Positions 1,443 to 25,230 of a DNA stretch of 64,000 nt are shown here, piece by piece; position 1 is the stretch's first letter, and the number at the start of each line of letters is the position of its first letter. Origin of the DNA: Collinsella phocaeensis (GTDB taxonomy: Bacteria; Actinomycetota; Coriobacteriia; Coriobacteriales; Coriobacteriaceae). Location: contig NZ_FQLR01000004.1 in the NCBI RefSeq assembly GCF_900119895.1, positions 1,302,001-1,366,000 on the forward strand. The letters run 5' to 3'. A program made the position numbers and the translations under genes. Below the pieces are notes generated by a model. That model was given only the letters and a program-made list of their open reading frames with translations, had not been told where the DNA came from and made no database searches.

Positions 1443-1456
1443 CTGTCTCTCCCCTC

Positions 1457-3390
<1,934 letters not shown>

Positions 3391-5576: not shown

Positions 5577-5590
5577 TGACTTCTCCAAAC

Positions 5591-7237
5591 TTAACTTACT
5601 TTAATAAGATAAGCCATACAATCGGTCTCGTCTTGAATAACTTGATAGCCCGGCAGAGGCCCATACTCATCAGTTCCTAATCGATTTGCCAGAAATGGTA
5701 TAAATGTAGAAAGAGCATTCGGATCATCAGTATATAGAACAATATCTCCGTCATCGTCATACCTGCCAAGAGCGGATTCAATTCCTTCTTCTGTGGGTAC
5801 ATCAGCAATTACTTCATCAAAGTTCTGAGCCTCAATAGATTTAGATGTTAATTTAAAGTAATTATATGAAATAAAGAATGCATCTGTATCACCCTCGCAT
5901 TCATTCACAACAGCGCTTAGATTGTCTTCTGCACCTGCTATTAGGTAAAGAACATTGGAGCTCTGTCCTGCAATGCCAAGCATAGCAATTGCAACCATCG
6001 TTGCAGCGCCAACGAAGGAGAGCGTTACATTCGAAAAACGACGCTCGATTGAGGATGATTCTACTAAAGCAGCAGCGGCCCAGCCAACGATTAGGCAAAG
6101 AACTGGGTAGACAAAACAAACGTACCTGGAAGAAATCCAAGGAGAAACCGCTGCAGACACAAAATAAAAGCATAAAGAGACAATTGAAAGCAACACTACG
6201 GAATGTAAAGATGCTGCCTTGGTGTCTTCAACGATTGCACCATCCACCCGCTGTCGACGAAGACTCCTAAAACCAGCAAACAAAGCAACTATGACAATAA
6301 CTAAATATAGGAAGGCGATCCATCTAAAACCAAAAGCCAAATCATTTATGCTCAAAAGGGCAGTGCTCAGTACACGCTCGGCCCTCGCTTCCAAAGGAAG
6401 AGCCGATTTTGCCCCTGATGTATATCCGTTTCCAAACATGCTCTCAACCGCATTCGGGAACACGGCAAAGGCCACAAGAACGCTAGCAATTATGACGCAG
6501 CCGTAGATTAGTGCGCTTGTATAGCTATGTTTAATTAGAAGATATAGACATGTGAATAATGCAATAAAGAACATGGTTATGAACATATAGTAATGAACCA
6601 TATATCCAAAGAATGCGGACAAGAACACTCCGATCAGGATCTTCGGATCACGACTGTTTTCAAAAAGATATCTATACTGAAAGTAGCAGCACACAATAAC
6701 CGCCAACATCGCCAGCATGTACATACGAATATAAATAGAAAAGCTAACAGCAGCAGGGCTGAAACCGAATAGCAACGGAGGCAGTAGTGCTGTGTCAGAA
6801 TTTGATATTATCCGTCTTGATAGACTGTATAGAACAAGCTGGATAAGCAGGAAAAACATAATATTTGGAATAATTCCATACCATTTGGAAATTGTTCCTG
6901 GAAAGAACGAGCAGATAGCATGAATAATTAAAAAGTATAGAGGTGGATGCGCGTCGTTCGATAGATTATAGATTACAGAATCGAATCTAAAAGCTTCACC
7001 TGGATCAACCTGTAAATAGCTTTTAAAGAAATCTGGGCGCAGGACAGTTCCATCCATTGCACCGTTCCAGAATAATGAAGGTTGATACAGGCTATTAGCC
7101 AAACCAAAGGTCCACAACTCATCAACATGGAAACCTTCCTTTCGAAAGGCCCAAAATAAAATGAGAACGATTTGCATCAGCACCATTGAGCCAAAAACAA
7201 CATGTTGCTTGTTGATGAGTTTCACCCTTAGCTCCAC
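5591..7237 (-). CDS. Multi-span GT-C type glycosyltransferase (PMT/GT39-like)
   Basis: About 548 residues with around ten to twelve membrane spans. The first external loop contains FHVDELWTFG, an acidic pair in the place of the GT-C catalytic Asp-Glu motif, and later HPPLYFLIIH, a hallmark of ArnT/PMT-like enzymes using polyprenyl-linked sugars. The C-terminal ~110 residues are soluble. With GtrA and GtrB downstream it fits the third, specificity-giving member of a Gtr system, taking sugar from the flipped lipid carrier and decorating a surface polymer outside the membrane. Start choice is uncertain: GTG at 7237 has the better-spaced AAGGAAG site; GTG at 7243 is also open. AT-rich like its neighbours. 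Confidence 0.8.
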   Translation of the reverse strand: MELRVKLINKQHVVFGSMVLMQIVLILFWAFRKEGFHVDELWTFGLANSLYQPSLFWNGAMDGTVLRPDFFKSYLQVDPGEAFRFDSVIYNLSNDAHPPLYFLIIHAICSFFPGTISKWYGIIPNIMFFLLIQLVLYSLSRRIISNSDTALLPPLLFGFSPAAVSFSIYIRMYMLAMLAVIVCCYFQYRYLFENSRDPKILIGVFLSAFFGYMVHYYMFITMFFIALFTCLYLLIKHSYTSALIYGCVIIASVLVAFAVFPNAVESMFGNGYTSGAKSALPLEARAERVLSTALLSINDLAFGFRWIAFLYLVIVIVALFAGFRSLRRQRVDGAIVEDTKAASLHSVVLLSIVSLCFYFVSAAVSPWISSRYVCFVYPVLCLIVGWAAAALVESSSIERRFSNVTLSFVGAATMVAIAMLGIAGQSSNVLYLIAGAEDNLSAVVNECEGDTDAFFISYNYFKLTSKSIEAQNFDEVIADVPTEEGIESALGRYDDDGDIVLYTDDPNALSTFIPFLANRLGTDEYGPLPGYQVIQDETDCMAYLIKVS

Positions 7238-7508
7238 GCGCACCTTCCTTGAACCAGTTTTTGGATAAGTCTAGTCGCTTCTTTCTCAACACAAAATACA
7301 AGCCACTAGACAGCTATAAAGTAACAAAGATAAATGTATCTCAATACTTGTCGATTTAGAGCCCATATAACCCAGATAATGAAAATACCAACTGAGTGGT
7401 GAGCAGCTGGATCAATACAGCTGTCGCCCCACGTCCAAATGACTTGACCGTGGGGCAATTCATTTAGCTTAACCAAAAGCGGTTTGAATTCATTGAAACT
7501 ACTGATAG
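7238..7508. other. AT-rich intergenic region upstream of the glycan operon
   Basis: About 270 bp with no credible gene. It must hold the promoter of the minus-strand glycan/rhamnose operon; several TTGAGA-like and TATA-like elements occur between 7250 and 7380, but I could not pick one pair with confidence. Near 7405-7423 the hexamer CAGCTG occurs twice, and a GCCCCACG/CGTGGGGC hairpin stands at 7426-7456. Confidence 0.5.
7426..7456 (-). terminator. Hairpin downstream of the GH2 gene
   Basis: Eight-base perfect arms, GCCCCACG at 7426-7433 and CGTGGGGC at 7449-7456, about 50 bp after the GH2 stop at 7509. No T-run follows on the minus strand, so it may be a weak terminator or a transcript-stabilising structure. 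Confidence 0.45.
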
Positions 7509-10500
7509 TTATCGCTCCACCACCCTGATTTCCAACGCCTCGATGGCTCTCCCCTGCCCGGTCGTGCCGGCGGTCTCACCATTGGAGACCCAGCCCTGCC
7601 AGCCTATCTCGGCAACATGCGTACGGTACCGAATATCGTAGCGACCCGCATCTGCACCTGTCAGCTCGATCTGCAGAGCCTCGAGCTGCAAAGAACGCCC
7701 GGTAGTGCCGCCCAATTCGCCGGAATCGACCCAATCCTGCCAGCCGATCTGCGCAGAGTGCGCCCTGTAGCGAATTCCCAGGTCATCGCTTGGAAGATCA
7801 AGCTTGATCCGAATTGCCTCCATGCTTTTCGCCTGACCGGTCGTTCCCGCAAGAGCGCCGTCGTGCACCCATGCCTGCCAGCCAATATCAGACACATGCC
7901 TCCTATAGGAAATCATCGGCTGCAGGAATGCGCCTTCAGTCGCACCGGGAGCAGCACCGCCCTTCTCCACCAGAACGATTTGAAGGGCCTGCATATCCTT
8001 TGCCATGCCTTCGCTGCCAGCAGATTCTCCATTCTTGGCCCAACCAAGCCAACCCGCATCGGCGATGTGGGCACGATAGTACACATCGTACAAGCCGGCA
8101 ATATCGCCCGTCAGCTTTATCTTGACTGCCTCCATGGCATTGCCCTGCCCGACGGTTCCACCGGAGCCCGCAGTCCAGCCCTGCCACCCGATATTGGAAA
8201 CATGGGCAGAAACCTGGATATCGCCATACGCAACGACATTCTCCACAGTCATACGAAGGGCCTCAAGCTGTTTGTTCTTTCCTACGGTACCGCAAGTCTC
8301 TCCGCCCGATACAGGAGTCATCCAGCCGATATCCTCCACATGCGCGGTGGACACCACCTGCGCACTCCTATCGGATGCGACGGAAAACGCCTGTAGGTTG
8401 GACCAGGGTCCATCGGCACCCTTCTCCACGAGCACGACCTGAAGCGCCTGCATGGGCTTCGCCTGCCCTTGCGAACCGGCTGGTTCACCGTTTTTCGCCC
8501 ATCCAAGCCAGCCGCTATCTGCGATATGGGCACGATAGTAGATGTCGTACCGGGAAGCGAGATCACCCGTCAGTCGAATGCGAATGGCCTCGATCGCCCT
8601 TGCCTGACCCGTCGTGCCCGCCTTGCCAGCAGACCATGCTCGCCATCCTATGTCTTGGACATGGGCAGAAAGCTCTATATCGCCCGCAGTCGGGCCTTCC
8701 GCGTCGAGCCTGATGGACTCAAGATTCAAGCTACGGCCTATGGTTCCCAACGTAGCGCCCGCGGGGTTCTCGTCGAGCCAGCCGAGTTCCGAAACATGGG
8801 CCTGCCCCACCAACTCGTCCTGCGGCACCGTGATGCCCTCGACGACATCCTCGCACTGCACCCCATCGCGAGTTGCGACCACACGGATCGAGTTGAGCGC
8901 ACGGGAATCTAAGGCGACGCTGTCCCACACAAACACGCCGTCCTGGGTTTTCACACCGCAACCCACCTGCTTACCGTTCACGTAGAGCACGCAATCGTCG
9001 CAGTTCGAATACACCTTGATGTCCCGTTCGGCACGATGTCGCTGCGTAAAACGCTTGCTCGTGATATGCGCAAACGGCTCATCGTCATTCCACACGGCCT
9101 TGAAGAAGTAATACGCATCCTTCTGTGTGGCATGGTCGTAGTTGACGAGCCCCTTGGTGTTCATGCGGGAGATTCCGCCCTCATCGCGATAGCACGAGAA
9201 ATCGAACATGTTCCACACGAAGCTGGCGGGGACATCGTCTCGCTTGGAGATCGTATCCCAGAACGTCTCAAGAACGAACCCCTGGTACTCCTCGGTATGC
9301 ATGGCATGCGATGCGTCCTCGTTTCCATTCCAGGCAAAGTTTTCGTCCACTTCCCAGTGGTGATTAGTATTCGCTCCGGAACCGTATTCGGAAACCATGA
9401 TCGAAGGAGTCTGATAGATGCTCTTGTAGCGATCGAGCTTCTCGTTGATCTGCGCAGCAAGCTGCTGCTTTCCCGACGTGCCGGCACTCGCGACCGGCGT
9501 CTTGAAGCCGTCGTACAGGTTGACGCCCGTAAGGTCAATCGAGGCGCTCCAGCGGTTCGTCAGAGATGCCGTGTCATAGGAATCAATCGTAGCCTGAACA
9601 ATGAGGCGGTTGGGGTCCTCAATTTGAGCAAGCTCGACGAGATCTTTGTTAAACGCCACAACCTCATCCTGCGTCACGTTGAAATCGCTTCCGAACTGCG
9701 CAAAGCCAGGATTCCAGCCGACCTCGTTCTGAACGCCCCACATCACGACGGACGTATTGTTGTAGCTCTGGCGAATCATTTCCTTCAGCTGGTTCAGAAC
9801 GGAGAGACGATAGCTCTCCGCCTTCGAGTACAGCAGGTAATAGGGAATCTCGGTATACACCAAGACGCCGGCTCGATCCGCCATCTCGAAGAACTGCCGG
9901 TCGTGCGGATAGTGCGCCACGCGTACCGCGTTGACACCCATATCGAGCATCATGTCCAGGTCCTGCTGCATATCCTCAGCTGTAACGGCGTTACCCCGGT
10001 CCTGACGATCCTGGTGGTAACCCACACCGTGGATTTCTATCTTTGATCCGTTCAGATAGGCAGCCCCGTCGCGAATCTCAAACGTCCTCACGCCGTACTG
10101 CCGCTCGACGTGATCGAGAACGGCTCCGGACCGATCCAAAACATCGAGGGAGACGGTGTAGAGATAGGGGTCGGCAACACCGTTCCAAAGATGGGGGTTG
10201 CTCACCCGAAGGCTGCACCGCAGCGGAACTGCCGTCGAACTCGCAGAAAGCTCCGAAGGAACATCGACGGATCGAACCAGATTGCCATCAGCATCCAACA
10301 CGGAAGCGCGCAGCGTAACGGGAGCGTCGAAGGATGCCGAATTGGAGAGCTGGACGCGAATGGAAATGTCGGCAACACCGCCCGAAACAGCCGAATCGAT
10401 GTAGAACCCGTCCGACCCGTAGTCTTCAAGGGAAACGTGCTGAGCCTCAGGGGATATCAGCTCGACATCACGATAGATGCCCGCCCATTGGGTGTAGTCG

Positions 10501-11246
10501 ACGTTGATCGGTATGGACACCGTGTCGATATTGGTCACCCTTGCAACCACGGAGACCGACGATTTGCCCTGCACGTAGTCTGTGATATCGAACGTGAAAG
10601 CCGAATAGCCTCCCACATGGGTACCCACGTTCACGCCGTCGATGAGAAGCACGGTATTGCGACTCGAACCGTAAAACTTGATGAAGAGCTTCCGTCCCTG
10701 ATAGGCAGCAACATCGATCGTCTTGCTGTACGTGACCGTCTTCGTGTTCATCTGAGGGATAAATGACATGGCGGGATGCGTGTACTCCCACGAGTGCGGA
10801 AGATCGACCATGCCGGAAGATCCTCCAACGGGAAAGGTCCAACCCGAGAAGTCGGTCGTTCCGGCGTCGAACTCCCATCCGGCATTGATGTTCTGCACGA
10901 TTCGACCCTTGACGTCCGCCGCAGGAGCAACGGCGTCGACGACTTCGGCATCCTCGACGCTCGGCGCTGCCGAGGATGCATCAGTGGAAGAATCCTTTAA
11001 GGCCCGCTCCTGACCCGGAAAGCCCTCAGCATCGCCCGCTGTAAACTCTTCAGAGATCGGCTCATTCATCGCCTCTTCGGAGGAATCCGTAGCGGCTGAA
11101 GCTCCCGTGTCAGCCGTCCCCGTCGCAGAGAGCTCCGCTGCCACATCGATGCTTTCGGGTTCAACTTCTGCATAGATAGCAAACGGGTTTGCACATGCGC
11201 CTATAGCGAAGATACCGATCGCCAGCCACCGAGCGAGTCGCTTCAT
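7509..11246 (-). CDS. Secreted GH2 glycosidase (beta-galactosidase-like) with nine ChW repeats
   Basis: A 1245-residue exported enzyme. Residues 1-~27 are a signal peptide ending in PFAIYAE, followed by an acidic Ser/Ala/Asp/Glu spacer to ~110. GH2 follows: jelly-roll sugar-binding domain (~115-265), Ig-like domain (~270-390) and TIM barrel (~395-690), with general acid/base E508 in WGVQNEVGW and nucleophile E620 in SEYGSG. A further beta domain (~725-810) precedes nine ChW repeats from ~816 to the end, in three triplets. The ATG at 11246 is preferred over GTG at 11255 because GAGGTG lies at good distance. The family covers beta-galactosidases and glucuronidases; substrate is not decided. The ChW repeats probably hold it on a cell surface. 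Confidence 0.9.
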   Translation of the reverse strand: MKRLARWLAIGIFAIGACANPFAIYAEVEPESIDVAAELSATGTADTGASAATDSSEEAMNEPISEEFTAGDAEGFPGQERALKDSSTDASSAAPSVEDAEVVDAVAPAADVKGRIVQNINAGWEFDAGTTDFSGWTFPVGGSSGMVDLPHSWEYTHPAMSFIPQMNTKTVTYSKTIDVAAYQGRKLFIKFYGSSRNTVLLIDGVNVGTHVGGYSAFTFDITDYVQGKSSVSVVARVTNIDTVSIPINVDYTQWAGIYRDVELISPEAQHVSLEDYGSDGFYIDSAVSGGVADISIRVQLSNSASFDAPVTLRASVLDADGNLVRSVDVPSELSASSTAVPLRCSLRVSNPHLWNGVADPYLYTVSLDVLDRSGAVLDHVERQYGVRTFEIRDGAAYLNGSKIEIHGVGYHQDRQDRGNAVTAEDMQQDLDMMLDMGVNAVRVAHYPHDRQFFEMADRAGVLVYTEIPYYLLYSKAESYRLSVLNQLKEMIRQSYNNTSVVMWGVQNEVGWNPGFAQFGSDFNVTQDEVVAFNKDLVELAQIEDPNRLIVQATIDSYDTASLTNRWSASIDLTGVNLYDGFKTPVASAGTSGKQQLAAQINEKLDRYKSIYQTPSIMVSEYGSGANTNHHWEVDENFAWNGNEDASHAMHTEEYQGFVLETFWDTISKRDDVPASFVWNMFDFSCYRDEGGISRMNTKGLVNYDHATQKDAYYFFKAVWNDDEPFAHITSKRFTQRHRAERDIKVYSNCDDCVLYVNGKQVGCGVKTQDGVFVWDSVALDSRALNSIRVVATRDGVQCEDVVEGITVPQDELVGQAHVSELGWLDENPAGATLGTIGRSLNLESIRLDAEGPTAGDIELSAHVQDIGWRAWSAGKAGTTGQARAIEAIRIRLTGDLASRYDIYYRAHIADSGWLGWAKNGEPAGSQGQAKPMQALQVVLVEKGADGPWSNLQAFSVASDRSAQVVSTAHVEDIGWMTPVSGGETCGTVGKNKQLEALRMTVENVVAYGDIQVSAHVSNIGWQGWTAGSGGTVGQGNAMEAVKIKLTGDIAGLYDVYYRAHIADAGWLGWAKNGESAGSEGMAKDMQALQIVLVEKGGAAPGATEGAFLQPMISYRRHVSDIGWQAWVHDGALAGTTGQAKSMEAIRIKLDLPSDDLGIRYRAHSAQIGWQDWVDSGELGGTTGRSLQLEALQIELTGADAGRYDIRYRTHVAEIGWQGWVSNGETAGTTGQGRAIEALEIRVVER

Positions 11247-11511
11247 TCGAAACACCTCACATACTCAATACATCGTACACAGCACAGCCATACCTATTCT
11301 ACGGGAGCGCAGCCAAACACCAGGGGCACTCGATGAACGGCGCTGAACTAGGATGCGGTCGCCCCCCTCAGCAGTCTTTTCCCGTGGCGTGCTCTTATGC
11401 ATCGACTCGATGGTTAAAGGCAAACTCCCCTTTAGGCCATATTGGAAACAGTTGTGCCCGAGCCTTCCCAAGAAAGCCCGGGCACACAAAGGATTCTGTC
11501 GAGCAGGGCCC
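11247..11511. other. Intergenic region between the GH2 and NlpC/P60 ChW genes
   Basis: No gene seen. The half next to the GH2 start contains a TAGAAT element (minus strand, plus-coordinates about 11294-11299) that could be the -10 of a separate GH2 promoter, with no good -35. The other half contains the hairpin at 11453-11486. Confidence 0.45.
11453..11486 (-). terminator. Hairpin downstream of the NlpC/P60 ChW gene
   Basis: Arms TGTGCCCG (11453-11460) and CGGGCACA (11479-11486), with imperfect inner pairing, 26 bp after the stop codon at 11512. It lacks a clear T-run. Confidence 0.45.
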
Positions 11512-14244
11512 CTACGGCATAGGCCTAGCGACTGCAAGGACCTTTGCGTTGTACACGCTCGCGATCCTCACCCCGACGCGCGGGCTGTACGCCTCGATGA
11601 TCTTGTCATTGCCCAGATAGATCGACACATGGCCGGAAGACAGGATCAAATCGCCAGGCTGCCTGCTCGCAAAGGATACGTGCATGAAGCGCGACGACGC
11701 CCTCATCTGGTTCGCGTACTGGTCGTGACCGGGCGTGTAGTAGTGGTCCCAGGGGTTCATGGGAGACAGGTCCATGCCGCATGCATAGAGGCTCTGCATA
11801 ACCAGACCGGCGCAGTCGACCCCCACGCCGGGTGCGCACGAGTAGTCCCAGATGTATGGGGTGTTGAGATAGTCCATCGAGCGTGTGACCATCGCGTTCA
11901 CGCAATCCATACGCGTAGCGTCGAACGGGATGCGCGATTCGGTTCGATACCCAAAGATACCCGAGCCCTGGTTCTTGATGGAGACGGACTTGTTAGACAC
12001 CTTGTAATAGCTACCCGGCGTCTGGTAGCCGATATATGGCAGAGACCCCACGGCAGCATAGTACGCCCCCGTGGTCGAGCCGGGCGCAGCGGCACCCTTC
12101 GCTCTCAGCCGGATCTGAACGGCCTGAACGCTCAAGTTGCATGACGTCGTGCCCGCCACGGCGCCGTTGGACGTCCATCCAAGCCATCCGATCTTCTCAA
12201 CGTGCACGCGGTACCACACGTCGAAATGCTTGGACGCTTGGCCGGTCAGTGAGATTGCGACAGCCTGCAGCGATTCGTTAGCAGCCCCAGCGTCCGCACC
12301 ATCTGATACCGCGGAAAGCCAACCCTTGTTCGAGACATGGACGCGATAGGAGATTCCGCCCTGGAGACTCGAAGACCCGTATGTGACTCGAAGACCCTTC
12401 AGCACCTTGGACTGCCCGACGGTGCCGCATACGGATCCGGTGGAGACCGCAGTCTGCCAGCCAGACCCCTCCACGTTGCCGGAGTAGGAGATCTGCGGCG
12501 TCTGGATGAATGGCGTGCCCGTAGAACCCGGCGCCGCGGCCCCCTTGGAGACCAAGCAGACCTCGACAGCCTCGACAGAGGCCGCAAGCCCCTCCGACCC
12601 TGCCGCATCACCGTTGCATGCCCAGCCGAGCCAACCGATATTGGCGACATGCACGCGGTACCAAACGTCGTAGCGGTCCGCCAAAGATCCCGTCAGGCTG
12701 ATCTTCACGGCCTCGATCGGAAGGTTCCTGCCCGTCGTGCCCGATGTCGCCCCATCGCGGACCGAGCCCTGCCATCCGATGTTGGAGACATGGGATGCGT
12801 AGACGATGGACCCGGAATCTGGAATACCAGGACAGGAAAGGCGAATAGCCTGGAGCGAAAGACCGCGACCGGTCGTACCGAGAACGATGTGGGCCCCTGG
12901 GGAGTATTCCTTACCGGTGCGCCAGCCTATCTCGGCGCTATGGGCACCGTACTCGAAGACAGGCGCCTTGAATGCGTTGGATTGCGGGCCCGGGGCAGCG
13001 AAGCCCTTCTCTACCAGAACAACCTGAATTGCCTGCACGTCTCGTCCGTACCCCTGGGATCCGGCAGGGTCCCCGTTGCTCGCCCATCCCAGCCAGCCGA
13101 ACTCAGCAGAATGGACGCGATACCAGATGTCGTACTTCTGCGCAACCTCCCCGGTCAACCTCATGCAGATGGCCTCAACGGCGAGCTTGCGTCCCGTCGT
13201 GCCTACACTGCCCGTCGACCAGCCTTGCCATCCGATGTTCGAAACATGCGCCCGCGCCTCGATTGCGCCACCCGCATCTGCAAGAAGGCTGAATCTCAAC
13301 GCCTCAAGCCGCAGCGCGCGGCCCGTCGTCCCGGCAGTCTCGCCGTCCCTGCTCTGCCCCATCCAGCCGATATCCGCAACATGGGCAGAGTAACCGACCA
13401 GCGCCTGTGTAAAGGCATCACCAGTGGATCCCGGAGCCGAAGCGCCCGATGCAACAAGCGCCACCTGGACACCGTACAGTTTGCGCCCGAAGCCCTGAGA
13501 CCCCGCAGGTTCTCCGTTTTTGGCCCAGCCGCTCCAGCCGGACGCCCCGCAGACCCGGTAGTACAGGTCGAACGATTGTGCGGCCTCTCCCGTGAGCTGG
13601 ATCTTCACGGCCTCGACCGCCTGGCTTTTACCGACTGTTCCCGCATAGGCCGTGCCGTCCATCGCGGTCCATGGCTGCCAGCCGATGTTGGAAACGTGAA
13701 GGCTCGCCTCGATGCCGCCGGGCACGTCACCGGAATACGCGACGCGCAGCGCCTCGAGCGCATTGCCCGCACGGTCCGACCCGGCGGTCTTCCCAGCCCC
13801 TACCGGATCGAGCCATCCCAAGTTGGACACATGCGCCTGGACGAGAAGCCCTTCGCCCGATGCATTCTCGCCTGCGTCCAGAGGGCACTGGTTTTCATCT
13901 TGAACATCAGGTTCGACAGGAATCTCCTCATTCGCCCCGGCTCCACCGGACGTGGATGAACCCTCAACCAAAGTGCTTTCGCTATCGGTCGGCTCAAAAG
14001 CTCCCGAATCATCGGCAACCTTGTCGGAATCCATGTCCTCGTCCTTGACGCCGTCGACGCCGCCATCAGTCGACGCAGCCCCGTCCATCGGTTGCGCGGC
14101 GGCTGCGCCGTCTTGGATGTCAACGTCGCTCGATACGGTGTCATTCACTACGGCGTCCGCATAGATCGAGACGGGCTGAATCAGGTATCCCAACACGAAC
14201 GCCACCATGGAAATCCAGGCGATCGTCCTCCTCAACGACTTCAT
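11512..14244 (-). CDS. Secreted NlpC/P60 peptidase with twelve ChW repeats
   Basis: A 910-residue exported wall hydrolase. Signal peptide ~1-30 ends in QPVSIYAD, and an acidic spacer follows to ~133. Twelve ChW repeats (~135-735) fall into four triplets separated by linkers such as APGSTGDAF. The C-terminal NlpC/P60 domain (~778-910) shows catalytic Cys811 in GVDCAGLVMQ and His872 in SSGHVSIYLG, with PGDLI before it. NlpC/P60 enzymes cleave peptide bonds of peptidoglycan stems (often gamma-D-Glu to diamino acid). The start ATG is preceded by AAGGGGG. It appears to have its own promoter and is flanked by hairpins, so it may be monocistronic within the ChW locus. Confidence 0.92.
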   Translation of the reverse strand: MKSLRRTIAWISMVAFVLGYLIQPVSIYADAVVNDTVSSDVDIQDGAAAAQPMDGAASTDGGVDGVKDEDMDSDKVADDSGAFEPTDSESTLVEGSSTSGGAGANEEIPVEPDVQDENQCPLDAGENASGEGLLVQAHVSNLGWLDPVGAGKTAGSDRAGNALEALRVAYSGDVPGGIEASLHVSNIGWQPWTAMDGTAYAGTVGKSQAVEAVKIQLTGEAAQSFDLYYRVCGASGWSGWAKNGEPAGSQGFGRKLYGVQVALVASGASAPGSTGDAFTQALVGYSAHVADIGWMGQSRDGETAGTTGRALRLEALRFSLLADAGGAIEARAHVSNIGWQGWSTGSVGTTGRKLAVEAICMRLTGEVAQKYDIWYRVHSAEFGWLGWASNGDPAGSQGYGRDVQAIQVVLVEKGFAAPGPQSNAFKAPVFEYGAHSAEIGWRTGKEYSPGAHIVLGTTGRGLSLQAIRLSCPGIPDSGSIVYASHVSNIGWQGSVRDGATSGTTGRNLPIEAVKISLTGSLADRYDVWYRVHVANIGWLGWACNGDAAGSEGLAASVEAVEVCLVSKGAAAPGSTGTPFIQTPQISYSGNVEGSGWQTAVSTGSVCGTVGQSKVLKGLRVTYGSSSLQGGISYRVHVSNKGWLSAVSDGADAGAANESLQAVAISLTGQASKHFDVWYRVHVEKIGWLGWTSNGAVAGTTSCNLSVQAVQIRLRAKGAAAPGSTTGAYYAAVGSLPYIGYQTPGSYYKVSNKSVSIKNQGSGIFGYRTESRIPFDATRMDCVNAMVTRSMDYLNTPYIWDYSCAPGVGVDCAGLVMQSLYACGMDLSPMNPWDHYYTPGHDQYANQMRASSRFMHVSFASRQPGDLILSSGHVSIYLGNDKIIEAYSPRVGVRIASVYNAKVLAVARPMP

Positions 14245-14291
14245 GCGCAGTCCCCCTTACATTCTTACATCCATTCGTTCTCAGGGCATCC

Positions 14292-14297
14292 ATTATA
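14292..14297 (-). promoter_or_regulatory. Candidate -10 of the NlpC/P60 ChW gene
   Basis: A consensus TATAAT on the minus strand lies 48 bp upstream of the ATG at 14244. No convincing -35 is seen 16-18 bp further up. Position between the preceding gene's hairpin and the start codon supports the call. Confidence 0.5.
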
Positions 14298-14358
14298 CGC
14301 AGAGCCCCGATAAGGCGCCGTATGGACTGTGGGAAACCCCGACCTCGCCCAATACAGC

Positions 14359-14389
14359 GAAGCGCCCGGCCATATCGACCGAGCGCTTC
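14359..14389 (-). terminator. Hairpin terminator after the L,D-transpeptidase gene
   Basis: Arms GAAGCGC (14359-14365) and GCGCTTC (14383-14389) with three further inner pairs, starting 19 bp after the stop codon at 14408. Few T residues follow on the minus strand. Confidence 0.5.
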
Positions 14390-14407
14390 CCGACCACGAG
14401 CATCACG

Positions 14408-17400
14408 TTACTCGTAGGTAACGACCTTGGTACCCGTTGGGATGTTGTCCCAGATCCACTTGGCGTTTTCGAGCGAAAGCCTCACGCACCCTTCCGAGAC
14501 GTGCTCCCCGAGCCTTCCGTCCTGGACGTTAAAGGTCCCCTGGTCGTACTTGATCGTATGGAACAGGTAATCACCGTAGAACTGGGTGTAGTAGTAGCAG
14601 CTGTAGCCGCGACCGAACACGTACCCCTTAATCCCGACGGTGTACTCGCCGAGGACCGTAGGCGTGAGCGGCGCACCCACGGAGCATACCCAGTACGCCT
14701 GCTGCTGCCACATGCCCTTGGAGCCACGGTAGATGCCCACACGGCACGTCGTCGTGTTGACCATGATGAGCCACGGGGTCCTGCTGCCGTACGCATTGGC
14801 ACGGTTCTTCATTTCCAGCTGGTCCGCAGGAACGATGGGCTTATCCGTAAACGGCTTATACGTAGAGCCCGGAGCGGCAGAGCCCTTGGGCAGAATGCGA
14901 ATCTGGACCGCCTCGAGGCGATACCCGAGCTTGCTCGTGCCCGCCGGCTCGCCGTTCTTGGTCCAACCGAGCCATCCGTACTCCTCGGAATGCGCACGGT
15001 ACCACACATCGAAGTACTGGGAGAGCGTGCCCGTGAGCCGGATCTTAACGGCCTCGATGCGCTTGCCCTTACCGGTGGTTCCAGCAAGCAAGCCATCGGA
15101 GACCTCGGATTGCCAACCGATATCCTGCACGTGGGCGGAGTAGGCGATGCCGCCGTCGAGCGAAGAGTCGACGGAGAGCTTGAGCGCCTCGAGGCTCAAC
15201 GCCTGACCCGTCGTGCCCACCGTGCCATCGGTCGTGCTCGAGAGCCAGCCCTTGTTCGAAACGTGCGCCTGCGACGTGAGCGTGGGCTTCGAGACGACGG
15301 TGGGTTTATCGCTCGCGGGCGCATCGGAGGAGCCCTTCTTCACGAGCCTGATCTCGATGGCCTCGGCCTGCAGGGCGGTGCCCACCGTGCCCGCGTCGGA
15401 TCCGTCGTGAGCCCAACCGAGCCAGCCGTACTCTGCGGAGTGCACGCGGTAGTACACGCTGTAGGAATCGGCGAGCTCGCCCGTCAGCTTGATGCGGATG
15501 GCCTCGATAGGCAAGTTCTTGCCGGTGGTACCAGAGATGGTGCCGCCGTTCACCCAATTCTGCCAGCCGATGTTGGACACATGGGAGCTGATCTGGATGT
15601 CACCGGAGACGGGACCGGAAACGATGGCTCGAACGGCCTGGAGCGAAAGGGACTTTCCGGTAACGCCCACGGAAGCGCCCTCTCGGACGGGGTCTTGCCA
15701 CCCGACGTTAGCGCTGTGGGCCTGGATCGTGATATGGGGCGTATCGTAGGAGGTCTGGACGTACGCATTGGACGTCGAGCCCGGGACGGAGGAGCCCTTC
15801 TTCACCAACGCCACGCGCACCGCGACGGCATGCGAATCCGTACCGGTCGAACCGGCTTCGGCTCCATTGGACGCCCAGCCGAGCCAGCCGGCATCGGAAT
15901 CGTATACCTGGTACCAAATATCGTAGGAGCTCGCCAGATCGCCAGACAGCTTAAGCGAGACGCCCTTCAGGACATCGCCCGATGCACCGGCGGCAGAACC
16001 CTCGGAAACCCAGGCGCCCCAACCACCGAACTGCGAGAGCCCGCGATACTGGAGGGATCCGGCGGCGAGCTTGTTATCAACCGACAAGGCGAACGTCGAG
16101 ATACGACCACCCCTCTCGGAGCCGAGGGTAACGGTCGTCGCCTTGCCAAAGCCAGTTGATGTGCCGGAGAGGTAGGAAACGGAGCCCGACAGCTGCTCTT
16201 GGGACCCAAGATACGCTCCTGACGTGGAGCCCGGGGCGGCGGAGCCCTTGGCGACGAGCTTGACCTGAACGGCCTCGACGGCATGCGACATCCCGACCGT
16301 GCCGGCGGGATCGCCGTCCTTCGCCCAGCCCATCCAGCCGATGCCCGAGACGTGGGCGCGGTAGTACACGTCGTAGGAAGCGGCCATCTCGCCGGTGAGC
16401 CGGACCTGCAGGGCCTCCATCCTGAGGCTGCGGCCGGTGGTGCCGGCGGTGCCGGAGGTCCAGTCCTGCCAGCCGATGCCGGAGACGTGGGCGCGGACCT
16501 GGACCGTCCCGGGGAGCTGCTGGTTCTCGAGGGAGACCCTCAGGGCCTCGAGGGACAGGGAGCGGCCGGTGGTTCCCGCGGTGGCGCCGTCGCACACGGC
16601 GGCCATCCACCCGATGCCGGAGACGTGCGCCCCGACAGACACGTCGACCGGCTTGCGGCGAAACGCCTCGGAGGTCACAGATCCCGAGGACGACGGAGCC
16701 TCCCCGCCCTTCTCGACGAGCAGGATCTGGACCGCCTCGAGGGCGCTGGAGTAGCCCTGGGTGCCCGCCTCCTCGCCGTCCTTCGCCCAGCCCATCCAGC
16801 CGATGCCCGAGACGTGGGCGCGGTAGTACACGTCGTAGGAAGCGGCCATCTCGCCGGTGAGCCGGACCTGCAGGGCCTCCATCCTGAGGCTGCGGCCGGT
16901 GGTGCCGGCGGTGCCGGAGGTCCAGTCCTGCCAGCCCACGTTGGAGACGTGGGCGCGGACCTGGACGGAGCCGGCGACGGCTGGGTTCTCCAGGGTGACC
17001 TTCAAGGCCTCGATGGAAAGGGAGCGCCCGGTGGTGCCGGCGGTGGCGCCGTCGCGGAGGGCATCCTGCCAGCCCATAGAAGCGACATGTGCGGAATATG
17101 CGATCGCCGTCTCCTTTGCCGGCGTAACGGACTCGACATGCTGAGCGGCAGCATCGTTCGCATCGACGATAGCAGGGTCGTCCGCTTCGTCCCCTTCGGT
17201 GGCAGAGGGGCTCTGATCGGATGCGTCCACCTGCGGGGATTCAGTGGCGTTTTCGGAAGCCGGACCATCGGAGCCAAGGACGGCAGACGCTCCGTCATCA
17301 GAGGATTCCGCCGTAACCGGCAAGCTCTCCGCGACCGCCTGGCTCAACCCTCCCGTTAAAGATAGCGTGAAAAGCGCGATGCACGCCAGCACGCAAATGC

Positions 17401-17434
17401 ATCGCCAGGCTGTCAGCAATCTTCTTCTGTGCAT
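14408..17434 (-). CDS. Secreted L,D-transpeptidase (YkuD) with fifteen ChW repeats
   Basis: A 1008-residue exported enzyme. A signal peptide (~1-36) and an acidic spacer (to ~110) precede fifteen ChW repeat units (~112-860) in five triplets; the seventh unit has lost its GW core. The YkuD domain (~875-1008) has the catalytic signature HVSEGCVR with His978, Cys983 and Arg985, and the upstream His959 in LFHT. L,D-transpeptidases form 3-3 cross-links or attach proteins to peptidoglycan. The start lies 18 bp after the GH25 stop with GAGGGAT as ribosome site, so the two genes form one operon. Two of the triplets share a 164-bp identical DNA stretch (16311-16474 and 16773-16936), a sign of recent duplication or gene conversion. 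Confidence 0.93.
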   Translation of the reverse strand: MHRRRLLTAWRCICVLACIALFTLSLTGGLSQAVAESLPVTAESSDDGASAVLGSDGPASENATESPQVDASDQSPSATEGDEADDPAIVDANDAAAQHVESVTPAKETAIAYSAHVASMGWQDALRDGATAGTTGRSLSIEALKVTLENPAVAGSVQVRAHVSNVGWQDWTSGTAGTTGRSLRMEALQVRLTGEMAASYDVYYRAHVSGIGWMGWAKDGEEAGTQGYSSALEAVQILLVEKGGEAPSSSGSVTSEAFRRKPVDVSVGAHVSGIGWMAAVCDGATAGTTGRSLSLEALRVSLENQQLPGTVQVRAHVSGIGWQDWTSGTAGTTGRSLRMEALQVRLTGEMAASYDVYYRAHVSGIGWMGWAKDGDPAGTVGMSHAVEAVQVKLVAKGSAAPGSTSGAYLGSQEQLSGSVSYLSGTSTGFGKATTVTLGSERGGRISTFALSVDNKLAAGSLQYRGLSQFGGWGAWVSEGSAAGASGDVLKGVSLKLSGDLASSYDIWYQVYDSDAGWLGWASNGAEAGSTGTDSHAVAVRVALVKKGSSVPGSTSNAYVQTSYDTPHITIQAHSANVGWQDPVREGASVGVTGKSLSLQAVRAIVSGPVSGDIQISSHVSNIGWQNWVNGGTISGTTGKNLPIEAIRIKLTGELADSYSVYYRVHSAEYGWLGWAHDGSDAGTVGTALQAEAIEIRLVKKGSSDAPASDKPTVVSKPTLTSQAHVSNKGWLSSTTDGTVGTTGQALSLEALKLSVDSSLDGGIAYSAHVQDIGWQSEVSDGLLAGTTGKGKRIEAVKIRLTGTLSQYFDVWYRAHSEEYGWLGWTKNGEPAGTSKLGYRLEAVQIRILPKGSAAPGSTYKPFTDKPIVPADQLEMKNRANAYGSRTPWLIMVNTTTCRVGIYRGSKGMWQQQAYWVCSVGAPLTPTVLGEYTVGIKGYVFGRGYSCYYYTQFYGDYLFHTIKYDQGTFNVQDGRLGEHVSEGCVRLSLENAKWIWDNIPTGTKVVTYE
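16311..16936 (-). repeat. Two identical 164-bp copies inside the L,D-transpeptidase ChW array
   Basis: Positions 16311-16474 and 16773-16936 read identically base for base, 462 bp (154 codons, one ChW triplet) apart. They cover the end of a third-position repeat and the start of the preceding second-position repeat. A related, slightly diverged pair of 66 bp lies in the neighbouring GH25 gene at 18521-18586 and 18983-19048. Synonymous positions are also conserved, so this is DNA-level homogenisation rather than protein selection alone. Confidence 0.85.
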
Positions 17435-17452
17435 AGCTATCCCTCATTCCAG

Positions 17453-20314
17453 CTACAAAAGCGGCGCGTTTCTATACCAACCCCATTTCGGTGCGTAGGT
17501 CGTACCATAATGGGAGGTCCACCATTCAAGGGACAACGTGCGGATTCGCCCGTCCGCGTTGTCCATCACAAGACCGTCCCCCACGTATATGCACACATGG
17601 CCGTATCGGGACCCCATGACCGTATTGCCATGGGAGGGAACCGAAACGACCATACCGACCTTGAGGTCGGCAGGTCGAGACGAGGTGCAGAAGTTCCAGT
17701 AGTACTCATACGCATCCATATGGACGTTACCGAGCCCGATGTTGTCGAAAACGCGTGCGACCCACTCAGCGCACATATTAGGACCGGGACGCGGAACGGT
17801 GCGAGCGCTTTCGACGACGCGCTTTTGCATGGCGCTTCCCGCGGCAAGGGCCTGGGGGACGCCGCCGACGTAATAAGGACCGTAGCTACCGCTGCTCGGC
17901 ACCGCAGAGCCGCAGGCGCGCACCGAGACCTGTATGGCGGTGACGTCCTGCCCCGCGCCCGTGGTGCCCGCCGTGGCACCGTTGCGAGCCCAACCGAGCC
18001 ATCCGACATCTTGGACGTAGACGCGGTACCAGATATCGAAATACTTCGACAGCTCCCCAGTGAACGAGAAGCGCACGGCCTGGACCCTGTTGGCCGAACC
18101 CAACCCACCGGCCACGGAGCCCCCGGCGTACGATCCCAGCCAGCCCGCATTGGACACATGGACCTGATAGGAAACCCCACCGGAGACACCGCTCTGAACG
18201 GAGAGCTTGATGGCGTTGAGAGCGGTACGCGACCCCGTGCTACCGCTCACGGCGTTGTTGCCGACAGCGGAAGACAAGGCCGATCCCGTTGAGGTCTGCA
18301 GGGCGATAACGGGCATCTCGAGAGAGGGGCGGGCCGTCGAACCGGGAGCGGATGCGCCCTTTTTGACCAACTTGACCTGAACGGCCTCCACGGGCGCGCT
18401 CAATCCGACGGTACCTGCGGTAGCGCCGTCCTTCGCCCAATCCAGCCAACCGATGTTGGAAACATGAGCACGGTAGTAGACGTCGTAGGACTCGGCCATA
18501 TCGCCGGTGAGGCGCGCCTGGACCGCCTCGATGGGCAGGCCCCGGCCCGTGGTGCCGGCCGTGCCGGAGGTCCAGTCCTGCCAGCCCACGTTGGAGACGT
18601 GGGCGCGGACCTGGACGGAGCCGGCGAGCTGCTGGTCGGTGAGCCCGACCTGCAGCGCCTCGACGGCGAGCGCGCGGCCCGTGGTGCCGGCGGTCGCCCC
18701 GCCGCGGACGGCCCCCTGCCAGCCGATGCCGGAGACGTGGGCGCGCACCGAGACGTCAACCGGCCTGCGGCGGAAGGCCTCGGGGGTGGCGGAGCCGGAG
18801 GACGAGGGGGCCTGGCCGCCCTTCTCGACGAGCAGGACCTGGACGGCCTCCACGCCGCAGGCGTAGCCCTGGGTGCCGGCCTCCTCGCCGTCCCTGGCCC
18901 AGCCCATCCAGCCTATGTTGGCGGCGTGGACGCGGTAGTAGACGTCGTAGGACTCGGCCATCTCGCCGGTGAGGCGCACCTGGACCGCCTCGATGGGCAG
19001 GCCCCGGCCCGTGGTGCCGGCCGTGCCGGAGGTCCAGTCCTGCCAGCCCTCGTTAGAGACGTGGGCGCGGACCTGAACGGAGCCGGTCTTCACTTGATTC
19101 ACAAGGGTAATCTTGAGCGCTTCTATGCTCTTCGCTTTCCCCACCGTGCCAGCAGTCTCGCCATCAAGGGCAGCTTGATTCTGCCAGCCGATGTCGGCAA
19201 CGTGGGCGTGCGTGGAGATGTGCTGGTTGGCCTCAGCCACCGAGCCCGGCACAAGCCCCTCATACGCATAGTTCACGTCCACGTTGCCCGAAATGCCCGG
19301 AACCTTACCCTGAGACGTGTACTGCCACGCATCCGGATCGCTCGGATACTCGCAAATCTTGTAGTACTGCGCCGACCACTTGCTCCACGAATCGAAAACA
19401 GGACTCGTGAGGTAGTACTTCCACCAGCGGGCGCCCGCATACACGCCCGCATCGTAGCCGGCGGCCTCGATCTTAGAGCAGAACGTCTGGGCGATATCCG
19501 CGAACCTGTCCTTGGCTCCGAGAGTCGAATCGTCCTCCATATCGTAATAGATGGGCAGATCCGGCGTGAGACCCTTCATCTCCGAAAGGACGTGTGCGGC
19601 TTCGTCAGCCGCCTCCTTGGTGTTCACCGAATAGGAATACAGATAGGCGCCCCACTTGATACCAAGGCGCTCGCACTCCTCGACATTACGCTTGAAATAC
19701 TTATCCGTATCGCCGGCATTCTGGTCACCATATCCGATCCGCAGGATCGCAAAGTCCACACCGGCCGCCTTGACGGCATCCCAGTCGATCTTGCCCTGAA
19801 ACTCGCTGACGTCGATGCCCTGTGCAGTAGCGCCATCGGGCAACGGATCCATGGCGCGACTTAAGAAATCACCGCTCGGGGCGCTCTCGTCGTCCAGGGA
19901 CTCGATGCGCTGACCGTTCTGGTAACGCCAAGAATTCTCGACAAGCGTGCGCGAGGCCATGGTGTTCGCCTCAGAGGCGTCTTCAGCTGCGACGCTTTCC
20001 TCAGCTTCAGAAACATCATCCTGCGCTACGGCAAGTTCATCCGTCGACGCTGCGCCCTCCCCCATCTCGGTCGACGCACTGCCAGGGGCCTCATCGGCAT
20101 CCTGCGACGCCTCCGCCTCCGAATCGACAGGTTCGTCGGACGTTGAGCGATCAGATTCCGTCCCGTCCGCCTGAACTGACCCGTCCTGAGCAGAATCCGC
20201 CTGCCCGCCTTCGTCCGAGACCGTTTCGGCATAGATGGCAACCGGCTGAATCGCAGACGAAGCGATCATCACGCCCGTAAGCAGCGAAACAACCGCACTC
20301 TTCCAATAGCTCAT
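17453..20314 (-). CDS. Secreted GH25 lysozyme with nine ChW repeats and a C-terminal CHAP/NlpC-like domain
   Basis: A 953-residue bifunctional wall hydrolase. The signal peptide ends in QPVAIYAE (~30) and is followed by a very acidic spacer to ~120. The GH25 muramidase domain (~163-355) has Asp168 in GIDVSEFQG and the YYDMED motif (Asp258, Glu260). Nine ChW units in three triplets follow (~366-815); the seventh is degenerate. The last ~125 residues form a cysteine peptidase-like domain with Cys848 in NMCAEWV and His906 in YGHVCIYVGDG, closest in look to CHAP or NlpC/P60. It could therefore cut both glycan and peptide. ATG at 20314 behind GAGGGG; first gene of an operon with the L,D-transpeptidase. 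A good promoter lies just upstream. Confidence 0.92.
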   Translation of the reverse strand: MSYWKSAVVSLLTGVMIASSAIQPVAIYAETVSDEGGQADSAQDGSVQADGTESDRSTSDEPVDSEAEASQDADEAPGSASTEMGEGAASTDELAVAQDDVSEAEESVAAEDASEANTMASRTLVENSWRYQNGQRIESLDDESAPSGDFLSRAMDPLPDGATAQGIDVSEFQGKIDWDAVKAAGVDFAILRIGYGDQNAGDTDKYFKRNVEECERLGIKWGAYLYSYSVNTKEAADEAAHVLSEMKGLTPDLPIYYDMEDDSTLGAKDRFADIAQTFCSKIEAAGYDAGVYAGARWWKYYLTSPVFDSWSKWSAQYYKICEYPSDPDAWQYTSQGKVPGISGNVDVNYAYEGLVPGSVAEANQHISTHAHVADIGWQNQAALDGETAGTVGKAKSIEALKITLVNQVKTGSVQVRAHVSNEGWQDWTSGTAGTTGRGLPIEAVQVRLTGEMAESYDVYYRVHAANIGWMGWARDGEEAGTQGYACGVEAVQVLLVEKGGQAPSSSGSATPEAFRRRPVDVSVRAHVSGIGWQGAVRGGATAGTTGRALAVEALQVGLTDQQLAGSVQVRAHVSNVGWQDWTSGTAGTTGRGLPIEAVQARLTGDMAESYDVYYRAHVSNIGWLDWAKDGATAGTVGLSAPVEAVQVKLVKKGASAPGSTARPSLEMPVIALQTSTGSALSSAVGNNAVSGSTGSRTALNAIKLSVQSGVSGGVSYQVHVSNAGWLGSYAGGSVAGGLGSANRVQAVRFSFTGELSKYFDIWYRVYVQDVGWLGWARNGATAGTTGAGQDVTAIQVSVRACGSAVPSSGSYGPYYVGGVPQALAAGSAMQKRVVESARTVPRPGPNMCAEWVARVFDNIGLGNVHMDAYEYYWNFCTSSRPADLKVGMVVSVPSHGNTVMGSRYGHVCIYVGDGLVMDNADGRIRTLSLEWWTSHYGTTYAPKWGWYRNAPLL

Positions 20315-20487: not shown

Positions 20488-22290
20488 CTAGACCCTAGGC
20501 ACCGTTTCCGCCGCCACCGCAACGTGCTTACCGGAACACGCAATCCCCCAGCGCACGCGCGACGACGCGCGCTCCGGCAACGCGCCCGCATCGTAGCGAC
20601 GATCATCGATCTGCCGCAGAGCTTCCTGCGCCAGCCGTTTCAGGTCGCCCTCATCAGCCCCGCGCATATACTTGAGCTCGATGGTGACCAGGGGGCGGCT
20701 ACCCTCGAAGAAAGGCGTCGCCTGGGGCACAAGTTGAATGTCCGGACGGCCGTCTCCCACCTCGCGATTAGAAACAGGGTCGGCAAACCCGCTAATCCCG
20801 AAACAAAGACCCAGGATGAGCATGTGAACGGAACGCTCGGACGTGATGTCGTGATAGCTTGCGGAATCCCTCAAGATGCGCCTCAGCTCTGCGCGCACCG
20901 TCACGGCGTCACAAGAGACCAGCGCTTCGTGAAACGCAGCGAGGCTGTCGCGCCCACCGGCGCCACGTGCGAACCGTTCGACGACCTCGTTTCTGTACAG
21001 CTCGGAAACCTCCGCATTGGGAATGCGCATTCGGCGCTGGATCCGCGTATTGTTGGGTAGCCCCGTATCCTCCGTCGTAAGATAGCCTGCCAGATACAGC
21101 ATGCTCCACAGTGCATCCGAACGCACGCCGATATCAGGAAAGACAACACCAAGATCGAGCGGAGCAAGCAGGGTACCGCTTGACGAGAGAAGGCTGTACA
21201 CCTTAGCGAGCATGGACTCGTCAGCATCGCGCACAAGGTCGGCCAAAACGGAATTGCCCGACGTGTTTCCCCAGTACACATCCGCAATACAGCCGTAGTT
21301 GACGTAGTTGAGCACGCTCCAAGGGTTATACACATCGGCCGCACCGAAACGGTACCCGTCATACCACCGGCGCGCCTCGACCATATACTTTGGATCGTCA
21401 TAGCCCATGTAAGCGATCAGCGCAGCCGTCTCCGTGTCGGTGAAGCCGAAGCGCTCGTCGGAGTCGGTGGAAAGCGGCGTGGACACCACGAGGTTGTTCA
21501 GGTCGGAGAAGATCGACTCCTTGGAGATGCGCTGAACGCCGGTAAGGCACGCGAAGGCCAGCACCTCGCCTCCGTCCTTGAGCGGACCGGTGAGAAGGCG
21601 CTTGAGGAACGTGACGACCTCGCGGTAATACCCGCCGTTAGGACCGGAATAGCCCGCCATGACCGGGGCATCGTACTCGTCGACAAGCAGGACCACCGGG
21701 CGCCCATGGTAGGCGCGAAGCAGGCGGGCGAGGTACAGCAACGACCCCGCATAGTCCGACTCGGATGCCGAGCCTGTGATGATACCCATCACGGCATCCC
21801 AGTCGTACGCTGCCACCGCATCAGACTCTAGCACGTACGCGTGCCGATCGAACTCCGCAGCGAGCACGTCCTTGAGCGCCTCGTATGTCTGCTTCCAGGT
21901 GTCGCCCTTGGCGGTGCGCATGCTGAGGTAGATCACGGGATACGCCGCGAAATGCTCCCGATACGCGCCGCCGCCCATCTCCCAGACCTCCGTGCCCTCG
22001 AACAGGGAGGGATCGGCCACACCAGCGGGGACGGCCTCGAAGAACGCCTTCATCATGGTCATATTGAGCGTCTTGCCGAAGCGCCGCGGGCGGCAGAACA
22101 GCGTCGCCTTGTAGTTCGAGTCGAGCACGTCAGCGATAAGGGCGGTCTTGTCGACCAGCACCGACACCGCGGCGGCAGAGGTGAACCCGTCGTCGCCGAT
22201 GGGCAGCCGTCTGCGCCCCGTGCGGTCCACGATGCGGGCGCCGGGAGCGCGCCATACGCCTTTACTGCATTCATGCAGCTCCACAGACAT
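20488..22290 (-). CDS. AAA-ATPase-like protein with C-terminal PD-(D/E)XK-type domain
   Basis: About 600 residues. The N-terminal half is an AAA-ATPase-like domain: after YVDKT-like VDKTALIADVL comes CRPRRFGKTLNMTMM, the family's P-loop variant, then VVLLVDEYDAPV as Walker B and sensor-like residues. The C-terminal ~120 residues contain PDIQLVPQ and TIELKYMRG, matching the D...(E/Q)xK core of PD-(D/E)XK nuclease folds. These two-domain proteins are common and often multi-copy in gut anaerobes, with no settled function; defence or mobile-element links are speculation. ATG at 22290 is chosen for its AAAGGGG site. It stands alone between the ChW locus and the sialic acid locus. Confidence 0.82.
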   Translation of the reverse strand: MSVELHECSKGVWRAPGARIVDRTGRRRLPIGDDGFTSAAAVSVLVDKTALIADVLDSNYKATLFCRPRRFGKTLNMTMMKAFFEAVPAGVADPSLFEGTEVWEMGGGAYREHFAAYPVIYLSMRTAKGDTWKQTYEALKDVLAAEFDRHAYVLESDAVAAYDWDAVMGIITGSASESDYAGSLLYLARLLRAYHGRPVVLLVDEYDAPVMAGYSGPNGGYYREVVTFLKRLLTGPLKDGGEVLAFACLTGVQRISKESIFSDLNNLVVSTPLSTDSDERFGFTDTETAALIAYMGYDDPKYMVEARRWYDGYRFGAADVYNPWSVLNYVNYGCIADVYWGNTSGNSVLADLVRDADESMLAKVYSLLSSSGTLLAPLDLGVVFPDIGVRSDALWSMLYLAGYLTTEDTGLPNNTRIQRRMRIPNAEVSELYRNEVVERFARGAGGRDSLAAFHEALVSCDAVTVRAELRRILRDSASYHDITSERSVHMLILGLCFGISGFADPVSNREVGDGRPDIQLVPQATPFFEGSRPLVTIELKYMRGADEGDLKRLAQEALRQIDDRRYDAGALPERASSRVRWGIACSGKHVAVAAETVPRV

Positions 22291-23259: not shown

Positions 23260-23274
23260 GGTACCTCCTAGGAA

Positions 23275-24231: not shown

Positions 24232-24240
24232 GACGGCCTC

Positions 24241-25161: not shown

Positions 25162-25230
25162 GGGAAGGCTCCAATCTGTTTCAAGGCGGGCGCTGGGCTG
25201 GCGCCCGGACAACTTGGCGCGTACATACTA

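Follow-up and report, generated by a model that had tools for sequence, protein, structure and literature searches.

Croux et al. (1993) are said to have engineered an exchange of parts between pneumococcal and clostridial lytic enzymes (chimeric lysins), in which the clostridial part was reportedly the repeat region of Clostridium acetobutylicum now called ChW. In Enterococcus faecalis, the autolysin EpaU is encoded in the rhamnan locus, and its variable wall-binding domain recognises the strain-specific local decoration (PMC13343894). The choline-binding repeats of streptococci have phosphocholine as their ligand, and a review describes the ligand of ChW repeats in the wall as unknown (PMC5817068).

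We analyzed a 64,000-nucleotide stretch of Collinsella phocaeensis DNA (hereafter, the window) in which four genes with ChW repeats lie beside genes for a putative rhamnose-containing polymer, and compared it within a sample of 65 genomes of the family (Collinsella and relatives, Coriobacteriaceae).

Four ChW enzyme genes in the window

Positions 7509-20314 hold four consecutive minus-strand ORFs (genes A to D), each apparently encoding a secreted enzyme: a GH2 glycosidase (A, 7509-11255; GH2 domain 8856-10904, 9 ChW units 7518-8798), an NlpC/P60 endopeptidase (B, 11512-14244; NlpC/P60 at about 11545-11862, 12 units 12106-13833), a YkuD protein (C, 14408-17434; YkuD at about 14420-14770, 14-15 units 14894-17089) and a GH25 muramidase (D, 17453-20314; GH25 19292-19816, 9 units 17921-19204) with a C-terminal CHAP-like domain (17456-17890). 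The original prediction of four neighboring ChW enzymes stands for the genes, their domains and the 9, 12 and 9 units of A, B and D; in C, 14 units are scored, and the predicted 15 are reached by adding a degenerate unit placed by eye only. Pfam recovers GH2 in three parts in A, NlpC/P60 in B (2.3e-7; 31.2 bits, cut-off 23), YkuD (PF03734) in C (6.5e-14; 53.2 bits, cut-off 23.4) and GH25 in D (6e-26; 92.3 bits, cut-off 27), while the ChW model (PF07538) passes its curated cut-off in all four proteins, at ≤1e-90 in each. Signal peptides were assigned by eye, and between them and the first domain lies an acidic spacer with 24-27% Asp+Glu, 0-3% Lys+Arg and 16-22% Ser+Thr; from residue 151 on, Asp+Glu amounts to 7-9% in B, C and D and to 13% in A. 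Counts of promoter-like sites (9, against 7.1 in shuffles) and of terminator-like sites (7, fewer than the 15.0 in shuffles) make operon signals uninformative here.

Cys and His motifs are the hallmark of NlpC/P60 enzymes, and gene B carries VDCAG and SGHVSIYLG. The D-x-E motif that marks GH25 muramidases is present in gene D, the GH25 motifs of which read GIDVSEFQ and IYYDME. The last domain of D falls under the Pfam cut-offs for CHAP (PF05257; 0.0057, 17.6 bits against 26) and NlpC/P60 (0.029), and a Cys, a Gly-His and an Asn are invariant in an alignment of three homologues; on this sequence evidence we class the domain as CHAP-like only.

Gene A finds its nearest solved structures among GH2 enzymes, entered under names such as putative beta-galactosidase (8dhe, 4.4e-91; 3cmg, 1.2e-88). 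Against the GH2 beta-glucuronidase LacZ4 model (NF050095), the protein scores 447 bits and does not reach the NCBIfam cut-off of 950. A homologue of this gene was found in none of the other loci examined, and the position beside the GT-C gene that GH2 occupies in the window is taken by domain X (below) in three relatives. The GH2 enzyme may trim a sugar peculiar to the polymer of the window species.

The usual active-site motif of YkuD L,D-transpeptidases is S/T-H-G-C. Gene C has S-E-G-C, retaining the Cys and the upstream His; the His of SHGC is replaced by E, Q or L in all eight ChW-type YkuD domains and by Ala in four of five choline-type domains compared, and SHGC is intact in the YkuD of genomes G020 and G046 and in structure 4xxt, which gene C matches. 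The cross-linker originally predicted from gene C is accordingly not assured by its SEGC motif, and we describe the product as a YkuD domain that is probably a transpeptidase, with a cross-linking role that is not assured. Since a second YkuD gene lies elsewhere in the genome, gene C is probably an accessory enzyme.

The ChW triplet

A profile derived from the repeats of the window itself scores 9 ChW units for A, 12 for B, 14 for C (one at 5.8 bits) and 9 for D (one at 5.0 bits), whereas the Pfam model alone gives 9, 11, 13 and 8. All 41 Pfam ChW matches in the 2.1-Mb genome (E ≤0.001) are inside genes A-D. Among relatives of gene C (76 loci from the best 80 of 213 matches), the best named are from Collinsella and another Coriobacteriaceae bin, with many Firmicutes among the lower-ranked loci, and 348 of the 438 ChW runs at these loci are exactly three units long. 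A triplet of gene C (16691-17113, minus strand), modeled with 110 others, is predicted to form a compact domain (pLDDT 96.9). Because of the runs of three and this compact model, the likely domain is the triplet, not the single repeat. Searches of the model against the PDB gave a best E of 0.21 (Foldseek) and Z ≤3.2 (VIA-align), which does not in itself establish a new fold. The fold recurs in five phage proteins in BFVD (E ≤6.3e-6, TM-score 0.72-0.79), and the names of three of these are lysin, endolysin or lysozyme.

Polymer genes and surroundings

From left to right, the genes for RmlC, RmlB, RmlA, a GT2, GtrB, GtrA and a probable GT-C precede the four ChW genes, all on the minus strand. 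The RmlC epimerase domain (888-1403; PF00908, 3.1e-41) belongs to a frame that runs past the left edge of the window and continues as what looks, by eye, like RmlD (L138:17993-19903). A gene with a GlfT2_N match (8.4e-7) is next to this frame, just outside the window, and because the two adjoin, the polymer may hold both rhamnose and galactofuranose. Then come an RmlB-type dehydratase (1457-2479; PF16363, 3e-70), an RmlA-type nucleotidyltransferase (2488-3390; PF00483, 4e-72), a family 2 glycosyltransferase (3398-4225; PF00535, 6.6e-29), a GtrB-type polyprenyl-phosphate glycosyltransferase (4203-5186; PF00535, and sll0501, 5ekp, at 1e-53), a GtrA-type flippase (5187-5588; PF04138, 3.1e-21) and a hydrophobic membrane protein, probably a GT-C glycosyltransferase (5591-7243). 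Of the three components of Gtr glycosylation systems, GtrA and GtrB are thus matched; the candidate for the third, the 5591-7243 protein, has no Pfam or PDB match, and its strong homologues are confined to the vicinity of the ChW genes in G009, G013 and G016. Read along their shared strand, the GT-C/GtrA/GtrB module comes immediately after the ChW genes.

The G+C content is 39% (4001-6000) and 46% (6001-8000) in the gtr genes, compared with 57-70% in all the other 2-kb steps of the window. The low value in the gtr genes is a sign of recent foreign origin. On the other side of the ChW genes, an AAA-ATPase-like/PDDEXK gene (20488-22320, minus strand; Pfam) has relatives near the enzyme clusters of G009 and G013 (ChW) and of G021 (choline). 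Just upstream of it, 22573-25212 is likely an operon for sialic-acid breakdown (NanE, ROK, DHDPS family).

ChW clusters and rmlC across the family

ChW matches occur in 18 of the 65 genomes and number at least 15 in 13. At least two ChW genes, and up to five, are neighbors in 12 of these 13 (stretches fetched), sometimes with other genes interspersed and, in G041, on both strands. In these 12 genomes the genes are thus not scattered singly, in agreement with the original prediction. G064 differs, having one ChW gene on each of two contigs, and in some genomes outside the family the ChW matches are spread over many contigs. In G009 and G016 contig ends break up the ChW genes, which lie on two contigs, and one additional match in G048 is away from its cluster; that all ChW matches are in one place is certain for the window genome only, the counts for the others covering the matches listed. 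Four genomes from one genus of the same order (G228, G204, G236 and G264) have very large scattered ChW sets on many contigs, the largest with up to 242 first-look ChW candidates in one genome, 25 of them scored.

NlpC, YkuD and GH25 (with the CHAP-like domain) are recurrent on ChW, and some clusters also have a C39 peptidase, amidase_3 plus glucosaminidase, amidase_2 or domain X. Domain X, of about 560 aa, is located between ChW triplets in eight ChW-cluster genomes (e.g., L033:5009-6697, L041:951-2633, L061:10868-12532), accompanies choline repeats in G020, and extends to Slackia and to a bin assigned to the Erysipelotrichaceae. It gave no Pfam or PDB match, and its model (pLDDT 59) is too poor for use; its KGHP and GSST motifs may resemble those of sialyltransferases.

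RmlC is encoded in 39 of the 65 genomes, comprising all 13 with at least 15 ChW matches and 26 of the 52 others (Fisher p = 0.0009, kinship uncorrected). In all 11 genomes having both on one contig, rmlC is 5.1-22.5 kb from the ChW genes; G034 and G049, where the two are on different contigs, were left out of this distance test, and in G019, which has only 6 ChW matches, rmlC is at 14.3 kb. Co-occurrence of neighboring ChW genes with nearby rfb genes, the test proposed with the original prediction, is borne out by these counts (12/13 and 11/11 testable). The chance of such proximity is 0.008-0.024 per single genome (spans partly rounded), and the combined p is 3e-7 when the worst value is taken for each of seven hand-grouped lineages and independence, perhaps broken by common descent, is assumed. 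The conserved adjacency may be one inherited arrangement.

The GT-C/GtrA/GtrB/GT2 module resides beside the ChW genes in 4 of the 13 genomes (the window, G009, G013 and G016) and not in the other nine. We therefore reject GtrA/GtrB/GT-C as the general maker of a ChW ligand, so that a decoration added by this module cannot be the general one; the rhamnose-containing polymer named in the original prediction would be a candidate ligand. LicD, the enzyme that transfers phosphocholine, is not a general candidate for this role either (licD in 6 of the 13 ChW-cluster genomes), and among the loci compared we found no glycan gene that is present at all ChW loci and absent elsewhere.

Other anchors on the same enzyme set

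Choline-binding repeats (PF19127) are present in 14 of the 65 genomes, with at least 30 repeats in seven and 6-25 in six others. In six of the seven large-set genomes, which were read, these repeats accompany NlpC (6), GH25 (6), YkuD (5), C39 (5, one gene split), CHAP-like (3) and domain X (1). The choline-type domains share 56-65% (YkuD), 40-48% (NlpC), 46-56% (GH25) and 48% (CHAP-like) identity with those of the window, and the choline-type C39 and X domains are 50-51% and 38% identical to those of G048 and G016. The distance from choline repeats to rmlC on the same contig is about 2.6-18 kb (hand subtraction) in G006, G011, G012, G020 and G021, with the CHAP-like gene alone on the rmlC contig in G012; in G008 the repeats and rmlC are on different contigs, and G015 has no RmlC match.

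In all seven genomes with at least 30 repeats, licD is part of the choline cluster or no more than about 3 kb away (distances by hand), and LicD is absent from all six genomes with 6-25 repeats. In G018, G023 and G043 the choline repeats are distributed over several contigs and licD is missing. G023 and G057, the latter also lacking licD, each have a YkuD gene carrying choline-like repeats (by eye), at distances from rmlC of about 8 and 17 kb, respectively. Since these four genomes lack it, licD is no general partner of choline-type repeats.

Further anchors occur on related enzymes. DUF5648 is found in three genomes, on GH25 or glucosaminidase, about 4.5-10 kb from rmlC in each. In G046, GBS_Bsp-like repeats are attached to YkuD (the whole protein is above the cut-off, single repeats below it), and a CHAP-like protein has a similar make-up by eye, these genes being about 13-17 kb from rmlC. 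The rml locus of G064 has a GH25 with SLH beside its ChW gene. The eight enzyme domains are absent from 8 of 20 rml loci of non-ChW genomes (G001, G018, G027, G032, G037, G038, G043 and G051) in the stretches read, some of which are on short contigs, and the enzyme set is therefore not a constant feature of these loci.

Exchange of anchors

None of the genomes with at least 15 ChW matches carries a choline or DUF5648 match (E ≤0.001). With genomes of 6 or more choline repeats taken as choline-bearing (13 genomes), 2.6 genomes would be expected to have both ChW and choline (p = 0.039); within RmlC-bearing genomes the exclusion has p = 0.008, kinship being uncorrected in both values. A single anchor type is used in 19 of the 21 genomes with at least two enzyme genes at the locus (shuffle mean 4.6; 0 of 20,000 as high), in line with the originally predicted single binding address per locus. 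With near-identical loci collapsed and G046 left out, 9 of 11 are uniform (shuffle mean 3.7; 0 of 20,000 as high). The exceptions to uniformity are G064 (ChW beside GH25-SLH) and G031 (DUF5648 beside an amidase with no anchor).

Trees of the catalytic domains require changes of anchor. The NlpC tree has at least two, each of which is required by well-supported branches, although G020 carries a long-branch warning, the YkuD tree at least two, which is the minimum for three labels, and the GH25 tree at least five (the minimum is 3, and well-supported branches force fewer). Some genomes with different anchors are alike in their surroundings. Between G013 (ChW) and G021 (choline), four neighboring genes are 91-98% identical (in one gene, across under half of its length), whereas the NlpC, GH25 and YkuD domains are 73%, 52% and 59% identical and the anchors are different; between G034 (ChW) and G011 (choline), three glycosyltransferase-like genes are 93-98% identical. 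Similar neighboring genes are common to G009, G048, G049, G063, G064 and G051, and sameness of the chromosomal site covers only the genomes that share such genes. This anchor exchange, which did not figure in the original prediction, is the strongest evidence here.

Proposed explanation and alternatives

We lean, with some caution, toward the explanation that a wall-enzyme set occupies a variable wall-polymer locus and that its anchors are switched en bloc to match the local polymer, as the sequence comparisons suggest. Genes A-D would be the local version of a wall-remodeling set, in which each enzyme looks exported (predicted from the signal peptides) and has an acidic spacer and three to five triplets. 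Each triplet would be a small wall-binding domain that recognises the polymer of the locus or its decoration, several in a row would provide avidity, and the anchoring would bring muramidase, peptidase, YkuD and GH2 activities to the sites at which the polymer is exposed. An exchange of the polymer genes would be accompanied by an exchange of anchors throughout the enzyme set. By analogy, the choline type may serve as a positive control from within the family for interpreting the ChW type in this way, because its phosphocholine ligand is known and licD accompanies the seven large choline sets. A more far-reaching version is that Coriobacteriaceae switch the wall-binding address of the whole set, together with polymer-decorating genes, by cassette exchange at one locus, that the decoration recognised by ChW triplets is as specific for them as phosphocholine is for choline repeats, and that a comparison of sister species would identify the ChW ligand; this is a serious possibility that we doubt slightly more than we credit.

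The clustering could also reflect nothing but a hot spot for the exchange of surface genes, with ChW binding peptidoglycan or an invariant part of the envelope. Peptidoglycan has been suggested as the binding partner of ChW in an autolysin survey (PMC8051824), and the locus is clearly variable. We nevertheless consider this unlikely, as a hot spot alone is not expected to produce uniform anchors on whole sets, nor the occurrence of licD with large choline sets, and a ChW anchor on Lactococcus is absent from the cell-wall fraction released by lysozyme/mutanolysin, for which its authors suggest binding to the membrane or lipoteichoic acid (PMC6700490).

Two further alternatives, which we find distinctly improbable, concern the function of the neighboring module and the direction in which the enzymes act. 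The GT-C/GtrA/GtrB module might glycosylate the Ser/Thr-rich acidic spacers instead of making a ligand, which would be compatible with an en bloc anchor switch; the Ser+Thr content of the spacers (16-22%) and the module's place directly after the ChW genes on the same strand fit this, and the Ser/Thr-rich N-terminal region of EpaU is suspected of O-glycosylation (PMC13343894), but only 4 of the 13 ChW-cluster genomes have the module while acidic, Ser/Thr-bearing spacers (by eye) are found in proteins of other genomes too. A literature search on spacer glycosylation by Gtr-type enzymes returned nothing useful. Equally doubtful to us is an outward action of the enzymes, against rival bacteria or on the glycans of host mucus, in which ChW would do no more than hold them on display at the surface. 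The resemblance of the GH2 enzyme to beta-galactosidases/glucuronidases and the likely sialic-acid operon upstream point in that direction; the recurrent set, however, consists of peptidoglycan families (NlpC, YkuD, GH25, CHAP-like, amidase and glucosaminidase), and GH2 is limited to the window among the loci examined.

If an en bloc switch is correct, the anchor would predict the wall polymer and vice versa, with a bearing on lysin design and phage specificity in a common gut family. Relatives with neighboring genes that are 91-98% identical and another anchor class constitute a natural experiment.

Comparison with known systems

A change of anchor class en bloc across a whole enzyme set, or ChW used in this way, was not found in the literature (titles and abstract openings), where only EpaU comes near; by title, none of the matches listed for ChW in Collinsella was on the subject. 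The anchor cAM12 of a lactococcal phage endolysin is a ChW anchor that is likewise non-covalent and directed to the surface; it differs in belonging to a single phage enzyme and in having no Pfam match, its ChW repeats having been recognized by manual alignment (PMC6700490). The chimeras of Croux et al. were engineered, whereas the exchange proposed here would be natural and would involve sets of genes. Streptococcal choline-binding proteins resemble the ChW set in that several wall enzymes share one repeat anchor, which in streptococci reads a phosphocholine decoration; unlike in streptococci, ChW or other repeats here replace the choline repeats near the same rhamnose gene.

EpaU is the closest precedent. 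There an autolysin gene is part of a rhamnose-polymer locus, which the rml genes (888-3390) suggest may also be so in the window, but EpaU is one enzyme and the locus described here has a set. The binding domain of EpaU is described as an OB-like repeat, and the paper never uses the word ChW (PMC13343894). That domain varies in sequence (48% between two strains), whereas the loci compared here differ in anchor class throughout the set. The principle is thus already known for one enzyme, EpaU; on the literature searched, the set-wide exchange of anchor class and ChW in that role would be new.
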